The notes beneath the pieces were generated by a model, which was given only the letters and a program-made list of their open reading frames with translations, made no database searches and was not told the DNA's origin. Positions 54,261-57,640 of a DNA stretch of 64,000 nucleotides are shown piece by piece. Made by a program: the position numbers and the translations under genes. The stretch's first letter is position 1, and each line of letters starts with the position of its first letter. The DNA is from Levilactobacillus tangyuanensis (GTDB taxonomy: Bacteria > Bacillota > Bacilli > Lactobacillales > Lactobacillaceae): positions 186,001 to 250,000 of the forward strand of contig NZ_RHOA01000001.1 of assembly GCF_003946545.1 (NCBI RefSeq), given 5' to 3'.

Positions 54261-54361
54261 TATCCTAACTATGGGAGGTGGCGTTATTTTTATTTAAGGT
54301 TAAACATGGTAAACTTCAGCTCCAAATAAGGCGACAGGCCGATGAAAGCGAGGCGATTCGC

Positions 54362-54778
54362 ATGAAATTTGACTGGCGGTATGCATTTCATTCATTTTGG
54401 CTTTTAATGGCGGCAACGGTACTCTTGAGTACGGTTGCCGTGACCGAACATCATGCGCTCCGAGTGGCACTCTGCATCGTGCTCGCTTTCGGCGTAATCG
54501 ATCTGCTGTGGACCTGGGAATATCCTTACTTTAGTCGTTTTAGCCGGCAAGGGTCCTCGGCACTCATTAACCTAGCATTATTCGTTATGGTGGCCTTCGT
54601 GGCGGTTAAGATTGGTCGTGGTTGGACTCCTAAGGAATGGGGCTTATTGAGTTTCAGTTTGGCTAGCATTGCCGGCACCATTGATGGTTACCTGGCGCGA
54701 CCAACGAAGATTCAACTGATGCAAACTCGGCAACAACTTCGTAAGAAGGCCGAAATTTTACGGAACTCATTACGATGA
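54362..54778 (+). CDS. Small membrane protein of unknown function
   Basis: 138 residues with about four membrane helices (FHSFWLLMAATVLLSTVAVT, LCIVLAFGVIDLLW, ALINLALFVMVAFVAVKIG, a weaker fourth) and a basic C-terminal tail RQQLRKKAEILRNSLR. The family is not recognised. ATG 54362 has only a weak GAGGCG site, and the frame is open from 54278 behind GGGAGG, so the true start is uncertain. A terminator follows. Confidence 0.6.
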   Translation: MKFDWRYAFHSFWLLMAATVLLSTVAVTEHHALRVALCIVLAFGVIDLLWTWEYPYFSRFSRQGSSALINLALFVMVAFVAVKIGRGWTPKEWGLLSFSLASIAGTIDGYLARPTKIQLMQTRQQLRKKAEILRNSLR

Positions 54779-54823: not shown

Positions 54824-54856
54824 GAAGCCAGGGATATGTCCCTGGCTTCTTTTTTG
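54824..54856 (+). terminator. Terminator after the small membrane protein
   Basis: GAAGCCAGGGA pairs with TCCCTGGCTTC around TATG, followed by six T. Confidence 0.9.
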
Positions 54857-54954
54857 TGCAACCGACAAGGCTACTCGACCTGGAATCACAAGATCTCAAT
54901 CTCTTAGAAATGCTGAATCAGCTGGTAAATTAAGTCGTAGAAGCAAGCCATTTG

Positions 54955-54990
54955 GCAACCGTGAGTCTGTTCACAGTTGCTGTTTTTTTT
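54955..54990 (+). terminator. Orphan intrinsic terminator, possible small RNA end
   Basis: GCAACCGTGA pairs with TCACAGTTGC (one mismatch) and is followed by TGTTTTTTTT. It lies 100 bp past another terminator with no ORF between, so it may end a small RNA starting around 54860-54900, or belong to the insertion target of the neighbouring element. Confidence 0.5.
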
Positions 54991-55000
54991 GTTGCCAGAG

Positions 55001-55173
55001 CCGTAGGGGGTCAGGGACAGAGCCTGTGAAGGTGGTCTTAGAAGGGTGGGTTGACCGTTCTTAGACCACGGGCCGAGCTTGGGGACTCGGGTTGTGAGGC
55101 GCCAAGTCGCCATCGCAGACCGCACTTTGGCTGGGATGGTTGCCCCACAGGCTCTGTCCCTGACCACCGTAGG
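55001..55173. mobile_element. MITE-like palindromic element with 20-bp terminal inverted repeats
   Basis: GGTCAGGGAC-AGAGCCTGTG (55009-55028) and its exact reverse complement (55146-55165) bound a 157-bp unit with no ORF. The unit is flanked by the 7-bp direct repeat CCGTAGG (55001-55007 and 55167-55173), a possible target-site duplication with one unpaired base on each side. Inside are GTGGTCTTAGAA/TTCTTAGACCAC (11 of 12 paired), CCGAG/CTCGG and GGCG/CGCC stems, so it can fold as a multi-branched structure. Confidence 0.6.
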
Positions 55174-55188
55174 CGGTCTTTCTCAAAT

Positions 55189-55222
55189 AAAAAGGTACCG
55201 CGGCACGAGGCCAGCGGTACCG
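55189..55222 (-). terminator. Terminator of the gene at 55237
   Basis: On the minus strand GGTACCGC pairs with GCGGTACC and is followed by TTTTTATT. Confidence 0.78.
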
Positions 55223-55236
55223 GATTAATGGTTTAG

Positions 55237-55485
55237 TTAAACGGCCGAGTAGGTCCAGTCATAGGAGAGTAGTTGGTGAAACTTCTCTCCTATGGGGATC
55301 CACAGCTTGGCCTTAGCAATGTTAGCGATGGATTCCCAGAACAGGGGGTCCTGACGTTCCTGGTCGCTCAGGTTAATGTTGACGTAACTCCCTGCTTCCG
55401 TTTTGGCGATTACGTAGGGATAGAACACCTTGGTAATTTGGGCGGGAGTGATACTTGTAATTTGCGGGTTGTCATCAATCAGCAT
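55237..55485 (-). CDS. Small uncharacterised cytoplasmic protein
   Basis: 82 residues, starting MLIDDNPQITSITPAQITKV. Mixed charged and aromatic composition (LSDQERQDPLFWESIANIAK, FHQLLSYDWTYSAV), no signal peptide or membrane helix. The family is not recognised. ATG 55485 follows AAAGGAAGCG at normal spacing, which supports it being a real gene. It is transcribed away from the two-component genes towards the MITE-like element and has its own terminator. Confidence 0.6.
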   Translation of the reverse strand: MLIDDNPQITSITPAQITKVFYPYVIAKTEAGSYVNINLSDQERQDPLFWESIANIAKAKLWIPIGEKFHQLLSYDWTYSAV

Positions 55486-55575
55486 ACGAACGCTTCCTTT
55501 CAATTTATAAACCCAGTATACCGGGGAAAGGTCGCGTGCGTCCTTGATTTCAGTTAAGGATTTCCTGAGAATTTC

Positions 55576-56949
55576 TTATTTTTCCGTAGCGTCGGTCACG
55601 ACCCGATTGAGGGTCAAGGTGAACTGACTCCCTTGGGGATCGTTACCGCTAACCGTCACTTGACCGTGGTTCAGGCGGGCCAGTTGCGACACGATGGCTA
55701 ACCCGAGGCCACTGCCTTCGATCTGATTAGACCGTGAGGCATCGACCCGATAGAAGCGATCGAAGATGTGTGCCCGATCGGCTTCGGCGATGCCTTCACC
55801 CTGGTCGGCAACGGTGAGCGTCACCGTCTGTGGGGCCACGTGAACACGGACAATGATGGGCGCGGTTGTTGGCGAATACTTGTGGGCATTATCCAATAAG
55901 GCGGTTAGAATTTGGTGGATCATATCCTGATTGCCCTGGACCATGGCGACAGATGTGGGCGCCACGAACGTGATGGGTTGCTTAACCAGTGGTTGATAGT
56001 GTTCAACGACACCTTGAGCCAGGAGACCTAGGTCTAAGGGCTCCAGGGTGACCTCGGCCCGATCGGCACGCGACAGGTGGAGGAGATTCTCGATAAGGTG
56101 CTGCATCCGTAGGGACTCCTGGTCGATAAAACCAAGCGATTCGGGGATGATCTCTGGATGTTGGTCGCCCCGCCGTTCAATCAACTTGATATTGCCACGA
56201 ATCGTGGCGATGGGCGTTCGTAACTCATGTGAGGCATCGGAAATAAATTGACGTTCCCGTTGTAACCGACCATTTTGGGCCGCCAAAAGTTGGTTAAAGT
56301 CCTTGGCCAACTGAGAAATTTCGACCGGCTCCGTGGGCTCGGGCAATTCCGTTTGGGTGCTTTCGGGATTCGCTGCCGCCTGCTGCGCTGCCCTGGCTAA
56401 TTGTAGTGTGGGGTCGCTGAGCCGGCGGGCGAGTCGGCGAACGAAGAACAAGCCAATCAAGAGACTCAGGCCGATCGCAATAATGAGAACGGACACGAGG
56501 ACGTGGAGATTGCCGACCAGGACCTTCATCCCAATGAAAAGAAAGTAGGTTCGCGACCCCGTATGAATCGTTTCGGAGAAGTAGAGGCCCCAGTGTTTGA
56601 TGTAGACTAAGTGGGTGAAGGGCACGGACCAGGTGTTGGCGGCGGTGAATTTTCCCGCGTGAGGTAATAGGGAGGTGATGGTACCGTCGCTGTTCTTAAT
56701 CATGGCGAAGGTGTTGTGTGAGTTCAGGCCACTACTCTGGTTCACCGTCAGCCATTCCTTGAAGTTACTGACCTGAGTCGTTTCCAGACTGGCGCTCAGG
56801 CGCTGGGCTTGATCCTGCGCCCGAAGGATCTGATCGACCGTCAGCGTTATCGTGACGGTTAAGACAATGATGAGGCCAATCGCGACCAGGAGACTGGTGA
56901 ACGATTGGCGAATAATGGTCGCATAGGACCGTGGGGCTTTAGTGTTCAT
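55576..56949 (-). CDS. Two-component sensor histidine kinase
   Basis: 457 residues. Two membrane helices (about 18-40 and 150-172) enclose a roughly 110-residue extracellular sensor. HAMP-like linker, HisKA with the phospho-acceptor in FISDASHELRTPIATIRGN (His241), and HATPase_c with N-box LLDNAHKYSPTT, DQGEGIAEADRAHIF and GSGLGLAIVSQL follow. It autophosphorylates and passes phosphate to the response regulator. ATG 56949 lies nine bases after AAGGAAG; ATG 56955 is too close. It overlaps the response regulator gene and is co-transcribed after it. The signal is unknown. Confidence 0.92.
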   Translation of the reverse strand: MNTKAPRSYATIIRQSFTSLLVAIGLIIVLTVTITLTVDQILRAQDQAQRLSASLETTQVSNFKEWLTVNQSSGLNSHNTFAMIKNSDGTITSLLPHAGKFTAANTWSVPFTHLVYIKHWGLYFSETIHTGSRTYFLFIGMKVLVGNLHVLVSVLIIAIGLSLLIGLFFVRRLARRLSDPTLQLARAAQQAAANPESTQTELPEPTEPVEISQLAKDFNQLLAAQNGRLQRERQFISDASHELRTPIATIRGNIKLIERRGDQHPEIIPESLGFIDQESLRMQHLIENLLHLSRADRAEVTLEPLDLGLLAQGVVEHYQPLVKQPITFVAPTSVAMVQGNQDMIHQILTALLDNAHKYSPTTAPIIVRVHVAPQTVTLTVADQGEGIAEADRAHIFDRFYRVDASRSNQIEGSGLGLAIVSQLARLNHGQVTVSGNDPQGSQFTLTLNRVVTDATEK

Positions 56950-57640
56950 CCGCATCAGCTTCCTTTAGGCTATAGCCGACCCCCCGAATGGTGTGGAAGA
57001 GGTGGGGGGCATCGTCAGTGTCAATTTTGTTTCGTAAGTAACCAATATAGACGTCGACCACGTTTTGTTGGCCTAAGAAGTCGACGCCCCAGACGTTATC
57101 GAGCAATTCATCGCGGGTGAAGACCTGTCCGGGATGTTGCATTAAGAATAGAAGCAGATCGTATTCTCGTTGGGTGAGTTGGAGACTGCGTTCACCGCGG
57201 GTCACCTGACGCGTTTTGGTAATGAGGGTGAGATCACTAATCCGGTAGGTCTGGTCCAGCCCACTCTGATGGGCGGTCCGCCGTTGGATGACCCGGATAC
57301 GGGCGAGCAGTTCCTCAATTTCGAAGGGCTTCGTGATGTAGTCATCGGCCCCGTTGTCGAGGCCGGTGACCTTGTCGCCCAGATAGTCGCGGGCGGTCAT
57401 CATGATGACGGGCAGGTCGTCGTGCTTACGAATTCGCCGGAGAACCTCCATGCCATCCATCTTAGGCAACATCCAGTCTAAGAGAACCAATAGGAGGTCA
57501 TCTTGATTGGCCTGATAGGTTTCCCAGGCCGTCTCACCATCGGCAGCGGTGAGAACGTTGAAATCTTCAAAGGTTAATTCCTTGGCAACGTAGCTAGCCA
57601 GACCAGTCTCATCTTCGACTAGTAATATGGTGTTTTTCAT
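56939..57640 (-). CDS. OmpR/PhoB-family response regulator
   Basis: 233 residues. Receiver domain with acidic pair ED at 9-10, phosphorylation site Asp55 (LVLLDWMLPKMDG), switch Thr82 and Lys104. C-terminal winged helix (about 135-228) with LTQREYDLLLFLMQHPGQVFT and VVDVYIGYLRNKI, split by about 40 residues. AGGAG precedes the ATG. First gene of the two-component operon, divergent from a small secreted protein at 57830 that is a plausible target. Confidence 0.93.
   Translation of the reverse strand: MKNTILLVEDETGLASYVAKELTFEDFNVLTAADGETAWETYQANQDDLLLVLLDWMLPKMDGMEVLRRIRKHDDLPVIMMTARDYLGDKVTGLDNGADDYITKPFEIEELLARIRVIQRRTAHQSGLDQTYRISDLTLITKTRQVTRGERSLQLTQREYDLLLFLMQHPGQVFTRDELLDNVWGVDFLGQQNVVDVYIGYLRNKIDTDDAPHLFHTIRGVGYSLKEADADEH

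Follow-up and report, generated by a model that had tools for sequence, protein, structure and literature searches.

The hairpin at 55001-55173 of the window, which is the whole stretch of 64,000 nucleotides of Levilactobacillus tangyuanensis analysed here, is interpreted with moderate confidence as a single arm from a mobile, non-autonomous repeat found in the Lactobacillaceae, the folded ends of which would serve its own spread. It has the appearance of a mobile element devoid of genes, and not of a switch for host genes. Its dispersal in multiple copies, its strand-specific and covarying fold, the outward pairing of its copies, the existence of occupied and unoccupied sites, the decay at orthologous sites, and the lack of detectable copies in one near relative, the sites of which are shortened, are all directly supported by the data.

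Direct reading identifies 20 exact inverted base pairs at 55009-55028 and 55146-55165, which independent repeat detection recovered as arms of 23 nt at 55006-55028 and 55146-55168, with 96% complementarity and a single mismatch. The motif CCGTAGG flanks both arms, at 55001-55007 and 55167-55173, and no evidence of coding was seen in the element, including the interior of 117 bp, the ORFs that cross it being mechanical. An earlier note on this stretch had reported the perfect inverted ends, the repeated motif, and an interior with several nested stems and no ORF, all of which were confirmed, the stems being the P2, P3, and P4 hairpins. The minimum free energy of the element is -108 kcal/mol, in comparison with -70.0 +/- 4.1 kcal/mol in 200 shuffled sequences (z -9.2), none of which was as low. 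The complete structured module, of class A with helices P1-P4, extends over 54997..55177 on the + strand (its sense is the + strand of the window), and matches positions 1-186 of the covariance model R1 with 163.5 bits. The P1 stem is formed by a 5' strand at 55006..55028 (+; fold, covarying helix 2) and a 3' strand at 55146..55168 (+; fold, alignment, covariation), which are the left and right inverted ends of the earlier note. It encloses, on the same strand, the P2 hairpin at 55032..55069 (fold, alignment, helix 4), with a conserved CUUAG/CUUAG and a U.U mismatch, the P3 hairpin at 55077..55107 (fold, alignment, helix 6), with a conserved A.G mismatch (GAC/GGC), and the P4 hairpin at 55109..55140 (fold, alignment, helix 7), with a conserved GACCGCnCUUUGGC. 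Alignment and end comparison also place the two copies of CCGTAGG, both on the + strand, at the conserved ends of the module, GCCGnAGG on the left and CCGnAGGCG on the right.

The module is widespread in the genus of its host. The BLASTN search with the window element recovered six places in its own genome (G000, 2.19 Mb; the other G numbers refer to the genomes of relatives, and the L numbers to fetched loci). Of 58 genomes, 19 had a match, including G000, and all 19 are Levilactobacillus; no match was found in plasmids and phages at E 0.01. The R1 model, which was built from 29 copies, gave at least 73 matches in G000 at E 0.01 (150 of 430 candidates scored), and matches in 33 of 35 Levilactobacillus genomes, where up to 75 candidates were scored per genome, a number reached in many of them. 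With eight candidates scored per genome and stricter filters, matches were found in 75 of 301 Lactobacillaceae genomes, which represent 10 of 40 genera including its own, and in ten of the 295 genomes of a sample of the order, all ten of which belong to the Lactobacillaceae. All these copy counts are lower bounds, given the hundreds of first-look candidates per genome that lie beyond the scored set. Levilactobacillus, Secundilactobacillus, Companilactobacillus, Lactiplantibacillus, and some genomes labelled Lactobacillus sp. were among the matches listed in a pattern scan. The Rfam scan, at the gathering threshold and also at a relaxed E-value, returned no family-grade match on any module, the weak matches to miRNA and viral 5' UTR families being at chance level. 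The copies are crowded in one region: C7 and C32 (149 kb) of G000 hold approximately half of its 73 matches, C2 of G034 holds most of the 45 matches in that genome, and crowding is also seen on C1 of G009; many of the crowded copies are of the short class.

The aligned copies share a common architecture and key letters, with strongly divergent stems. The module is branched and approximately 180 nt in length, ranging from some 140 to 235 nt across its classes, and many copies carry CCGnAGG at both ends. In the A1 alignment (29 copies, MAFFT), double changes, that is, on both sides of the pair, are found at 43 of 55 pairs, a value that none of 500 shuffles reached; 94.7% of the cells are paired, in comparison with 77.5% in shuffled and no more than 49.9% in slid versions, and the covariation score is 0.49, as against 0.05-0.11 when slid. 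The A4 alignment (122 copies), which was fitted to the model and is thus biased towards it, has double changes at 48 of the 55 pairs, again with none of 500 shuffles as high. The alignment also reveals conserved non-pairs, a U.U in P2 and an A.G in P3 and P4. A shorter class, represented by 30 copies in G000 with a mean length of 148 nt, does not have P3. The fold is specific to one strand: the module sense folds better than its complement in 42/42 full and 25/30 short copies of G000, in 111 of the 122 copies of A4, and in 16/16 of the B modules of Secundilactobacillus similis, and the RNAalifold energy of A1 is -69.4 in the module sense and -50.1 in the other. This preference is explained by a fold that has to function in RNA or in a single strand of DNA, and not by a symmetrical DNA palindrome. 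The alternative of a structured RNA, which the earlier note had also raised, is borne out to the extent that the module is a highly structured nucleic acid in which covariation is massive.

The copies are organized in pairs. Neighbours of opposite orientation within 750 bp of each other face outward (-,+) in 21/21 cases in G000, 9/9 in G034, and 33/33 in a further set, a total of 63/63. Further hits examined by eye comprise one set of loci with ten outward pairs and one inward pair, and a second with eight outward pairs and none inward; the sole inward pair is found at L131 (173-347 on the + strand and 975-1164 on the - strand), with the 88-aa ORF that also borders the window site between its members. 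No conserved cargo was seen in the spacers between the G000 copies, which are unrelated across loci except for local duplications, and no clear terminal repeats were found beyond the modules of the G000 and G034 pairs, where the scores are mostly at shuffle level. Two of the single copies of G000 (C32:30049 and C32:58552) belong to pairs of which G034 retains the second module, which indicates that at least some of the singles are broken pairs. The copy in the window has probably lost its left arm, the probable place of which would be the stretch at 54856..54996 (no strand assigned), between the T-run of a host terminator and the module, although no arm is recognizable there; the gap is 323 bp here, in comparison with 128 bp in G034. 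On sequence reading, this terminator (GAAGCCAGGGA/TCCCTGGCTTC with a T-run; 54824..54855, +) is an intrinsic one of the upstream gene, and a terminator-like hairpin of the convergent small gene (GGTACCGC/GCGGTACC) lies on the other side of the module, at 55188..55221 (-). Tandem copies in the same orientation are found at L107:3946/4207, L102:11175/11446, L098:3429/3652, and L112:12036/12233, and each case represents a single arm that was duplicated locally, sometimes together with its flank.

In S. similis, the module is found inside units with terminal repeats, such as the perfect 25-bp TGTCGTTTGTGTCCAGCGTAAGCAT and its complement at L214, and the core of these terminal inverted repeats (TIRs) has 257 matches with no more than one mismatch, as against none in the reversed control. 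Of the 20 units read, nine are 316-329 bp long with other contents, and 11 measure 768-900 bp between the cores; all 11 of these large units have an A motif at one end and a B motif at the other, both facing outward. On sequence reading, GGCUCAGCnGUGUCG and CACnGCGUUCCAGCC are common to the B motif and to the short-class copies of G000. No target duplication was evident at the units read, and no autonomous relative or transposase was noticed in the 20. The L349-L357 loci of this species contain a compact repeat of approximately 318 bp with the same terminal core and a different interior, and these units, when oriented alike, prefer one strand in 9/9 cases (-148.5 vs -161.4 kcal/mol).

The site of the window lies between two convergent genes, an 88-aa ORF and the gene at 54278-54778. 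Both genes are within reach at 25 of 30 loci of the genus, and a module match is present at eight of the 25, in G000, G024, G030, G012, G027, G025, G023, and G020, while G034 retains a decayed remnant and the remaining loci have no match. The module is thus neither a single copy lacking empty sites nor a fixture of this locus in all relatives. The shortest gaps at this site, of 112-196 bp, are found in G016, G004, G010, G028, G029, G002, and G031, and consist mainly of two facing terminators. Where present, the module nearest the 88-aa ORF is directed towards this ORF, just as it is in the window, and the occupation of the site in eight genomes may reflect either a single old insertion followed by losses or repeated entry. 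The ORF itself (55237-55503, -), which lies beside a histidine kinase gene, is found in 30/30 of the loci examined in the genus with 80-100% identity, and has no Pfam family. At L117, L121, and L123 (G007, G009, and G032), the equivalent of the window site holds a different inverted repeat of some 110 bp, GTGCGCCATCAGGCGGTTAGTCGGC and its near complement, with no module match. Of the 30 loci, 17 have a gap of 54-74 bp between the histidine kinase (55576-56955) and the ORF, and the other 13 have one of 117-717 bp; nine of these 13 have a module match, two of them weak (G026 and G019); no match was found in the longer gaps of G015, G008, G030, and G031. One insert, with short inverted ends, lies near the start of the ORF in G007, G009, and G032, and in decayed form in G031, with CATARAT/CATAATT flanks that form imperfect 7-bp direct repeats, a single event only, and another lies at the stop codon of the kinase in G002, G019, and others, so that this region has been entered at no fewer than two places. 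The copies avoid genes, as none of the 66 examined in G000 shares 60 bp or more with a called gene, and they are common in convergent gaps and rare in divergent ones. Known riboswitches are also found near some copies, with a guanidine-I riboswitch at L096:11445-11539 (-), near a short-class copy, and a TPP riboswitch at L111:14476-14582 (-), near another.

The comparison of close relatives points to little recent movement. A counterpart within the fetched G034 sequence could be assigned to 30 of the 43 clusters of G000, and 26 of these 30 sites have a match in both genomes, on which this assessment is based; the four without a match in G034, including that of the window, have gaps of 51-128 bp there, as against 186-323 bp in G000. 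The ortholog test used 15 of the 18 pairs listed, one having no partner row and two others, which look replaced, being left out. In these 15, 44% of the changed base pairs are still paired, in comparison with 34% (26-44%) in a neutral simulation, which is slightly above neutral (P 0.03; doubles, P 0.005) and may reflect local constraint or conversion at settled copies; when the two replaced-looking pairs are included, pairing is preserved at 57 of the 110 changed pairs. These two, L112:5184 and L112:11580, are 73% and 70% identical to their G034 partners, with 18/25 double changes (8-10 per pair), and look as if other copies had overwritten them by gene conversion. Among the G000 paralogs (the first 36 rows of A2), 76-81% of the changed pairs stay paired in the bins of 45-85% identity, 55% at 90-95% identity (six pairs of copies), and 75% above this (one pair). 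Divergence time confounds the test, so the contrast between orthologs and paralogs is only suggestive of a decay of the fold in settled copies.

Stronger evidence comes from the near relative G031, in which no match was found at E 0.05 (150 of 289 candidates scored), the best hit in 120 kb being at chance level, with 13.7 bits. By contrast, G009, the kinase DNA of which is 85.5% identical to that of G031, has 77 matches. In the syntenic block, 16 of 19 G009 clusters were matched in G031, and the gap is shorter in G031 in 16/16 (24-688 bp vs 195-1308 bp in G009), with end remnants recognizable by eye in several of them. There was also no match in G022, and ten were found in G016.

A number of other explanations may be weighed against these data. 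The earlier note had described the hairpin as a MITE-like element, and an ordinary MITE, with 20-bp TIRs at 55009-55028/55146-55165 and CCGTAGG as a 7-bp target duplication, would account for the perfect inverted ends and the many copies, but is very improbable, given that the ends are the base stem P1, the sequence of which varies between copies and covaries, that CCnnAGG is a feature of the module itself, and that outer terminal repeats, where present, lie elsewhere, in the S. similis units and in one Levilactobacillus insertion. Among the copies with CCnnAGG at both ends, the two ends are identical in 1/10 (A1), 3/17 (A2), and 2/55 (A4), in comparison with 0.6, 4.6, and 17.4 after shuffling, and since they agree no more than shuffled ends, CCGTAGG is conserved module sequence and not a target duplication. 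What survives of the MITE proposal is a dispersed, gene-free repeat of the mobile type; its ends and its duplication were misread, and the element-like unit is larger, being best read as an outward-facing pair of modules, one of which the window retains. It is also unlikely that the modules serve the host as regulatory RNAs, be it as leaders, 3' ends, or small RNAs, each copy being retained to control genes at its own locus. Covariation of riboswitch grade, strand specificity, the location of some copies shortly before a codirectional gene (L097), the 26/30 matched sites that keep their match in G034, and the module at 8/25 loci of the window site would all fit this role, but the adjacent downstream gene is codirectional for only 23 of 66 G000 copies, 17 of the 25 loci have no module match, no copy was detected in G031, and the orthologous copies change in a near neutral pattern. 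Promoters are equally unhelpful to this explanation, as no enrichment was found upstream of the module, and promoter-like sites are more common downstream (11.8% vs 3.2% on the other strand at a score of 10), which indicates that the module is often outside that transcript. Two specific candidates were dropped, a 5'-leader riboswitch, raised by L097, on the orientation counts, and a dedicated sRNA with its own promoter, on the lack of upstream enrichment. The probability is lower still for modules that terminate or insulate transcription, as a terminator or 3'-protector, which would explain their placement in convergent gaps. In the window and the fetched stretches, a copy occupies 14/32 convergent, 23/106 codirectional, and 2/35 divergent gaps (p 9e-4), and a stop codon often lies at a distance of 13-60 nt from the GC-rich hairpins. 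However, many of the occupied gaps, that of the window included, already carry their own ordinary hairpin-plus-T terminators, the short unoccupied gaps at the window site hold just such terminators, and a branched fold of 180 nt with conserved mismatches would be superfluous for this function.

A rather different alternative accepts the mobility of the repeat, with the fold acting only as RNA, in a transcript that RNA-dependent machinery would process or copy, and not as single-stranded DNA. This is quite possible, if somewhat short of an even chance. G-U pairs are common in the + strand structure of A1 (79, in comparison with 26 A-C) and are stable in places (at one pair of A4, 40 of 119 are GU), and the conserved U.U and A.G mismatches appear RNA-like, but the same pattern would result from G-T wobbles in a DNA single strand, and no upstream promoter signal was found. 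Reverse transcriptase was found in 10 of 35 genomes of the genus, in a pattern that does not follow the carriers, with no match in the other 25, of which 23 are carriers. The Y1 transposase, present in 23 of the 35, does not follow the carriers either: no match was found in G000, G034, G002, G012, and G032, which carry many copies, and it is present in G031 and G022, in which no copies were detected. Both enzymes were thus rejected as partners on their phyletic patterns, and neither an autonomous copy nor any other transposase or partner came to light.

In the reading of the module as one arm of a mobile repeat, the complete unit would consist of two outward-facing branched modules of approximately 140-235 nt around a short spacer with no conserved content. 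These modules would be of class A, with P3, of the shorter class, without P3, or, in S. similis, of the B type, and in some lineages ordinary terminal inverted repeats would mark the limits of the unit. With the modules pointing outward, a correctly folded module would stand at the 3' end of either DNA strand and of any transcript that crosses the unit, which is the simplest reason seen for the fixed orientation of the pairs. The unit would carry no gene and be moved in trans by a putative enzyme, the machinery may recognize the folded 3' end, and the fold would be retained in the copies that spread and decay in those that have settled. A more specific version, which is held only tentatively, is that of a new type of mobile repeat, with large, branched, strand-specific structural ends in place of TIRs defined by their sequence. 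Here, the machinery would recognize the 3' ends by their shape, the spreading arms would undergo compensatory changes as a functional RNA does, and a genome-wide factor acting in trans, gone or inactive in G031, would keep or make the copies.

A number of known systems resemble this repeat in part. The REPIN and REP-RAYT systems are inverted pairs of structured repeats that are moved in trans by a single-strand transposase, and the REPs are short hairpins, whereas the lactobacilli modules are approximately 140-235 nt in length, and the Y1 transposases of the genus do not follow the carriers. In the foldback elements, long inverted arms surround a variable spacer, whereas the arms here are covarying and sometimes different modules, rather than copies of one another. 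The bcr1 repeat is intergenic, approximately 150-170 bp long, with a common secondary structure, and its host belongs to a different order of bacteria from the lactobacilli; to our knowledge, no outward pairing has been described in bcr1. The lactobacilli repeat is like it in being an intergenic structured repeat and unlike it in its outward pairs. Bcr1 of the Bacillus cereus group appears in the tables of PMC2267715, a source in which Lactobacillus johnsonii is among the genomes listed. The BOX, RUP, and SPRITE elements of the pneumococcus are described by Croucher et al. 2011 (PMC3049150) as small interspersed repeats with extensive secondary structure and many copies, judged to be parasitic, with slow current insertion. 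The lactobacilli repeat is likewise small, structured, interspersed, and multicopy, and differs in its two outward branched modules, deep covariation, presence in several genera, and near relative in which no copies were detected, the relationship of the sequences having been compared through the Rfam scans only. In its workings, the repeat is like BOX, RUP, SPRITE, and bcr1, but no membership of these families is claimed.

The repeat is seemingly undescribed. Searches of the open-paper literature found no such repeat in lactobacilli, and as the subscription literature was mostly outside their scope, a prior description is possible. Bacteria of food and fermentation carry, in tens of copies per genome, a repeat with covariation like that of the classic structured RNAs and no Rfam family. 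The natural copies, the occupied and unoccupied sites, and the near relative in which no copies were detected together provide material on why selfish repeats keep elaborate folds, and the same material is useful for finding the enzyme that moves the repeats of the lactobacilli.
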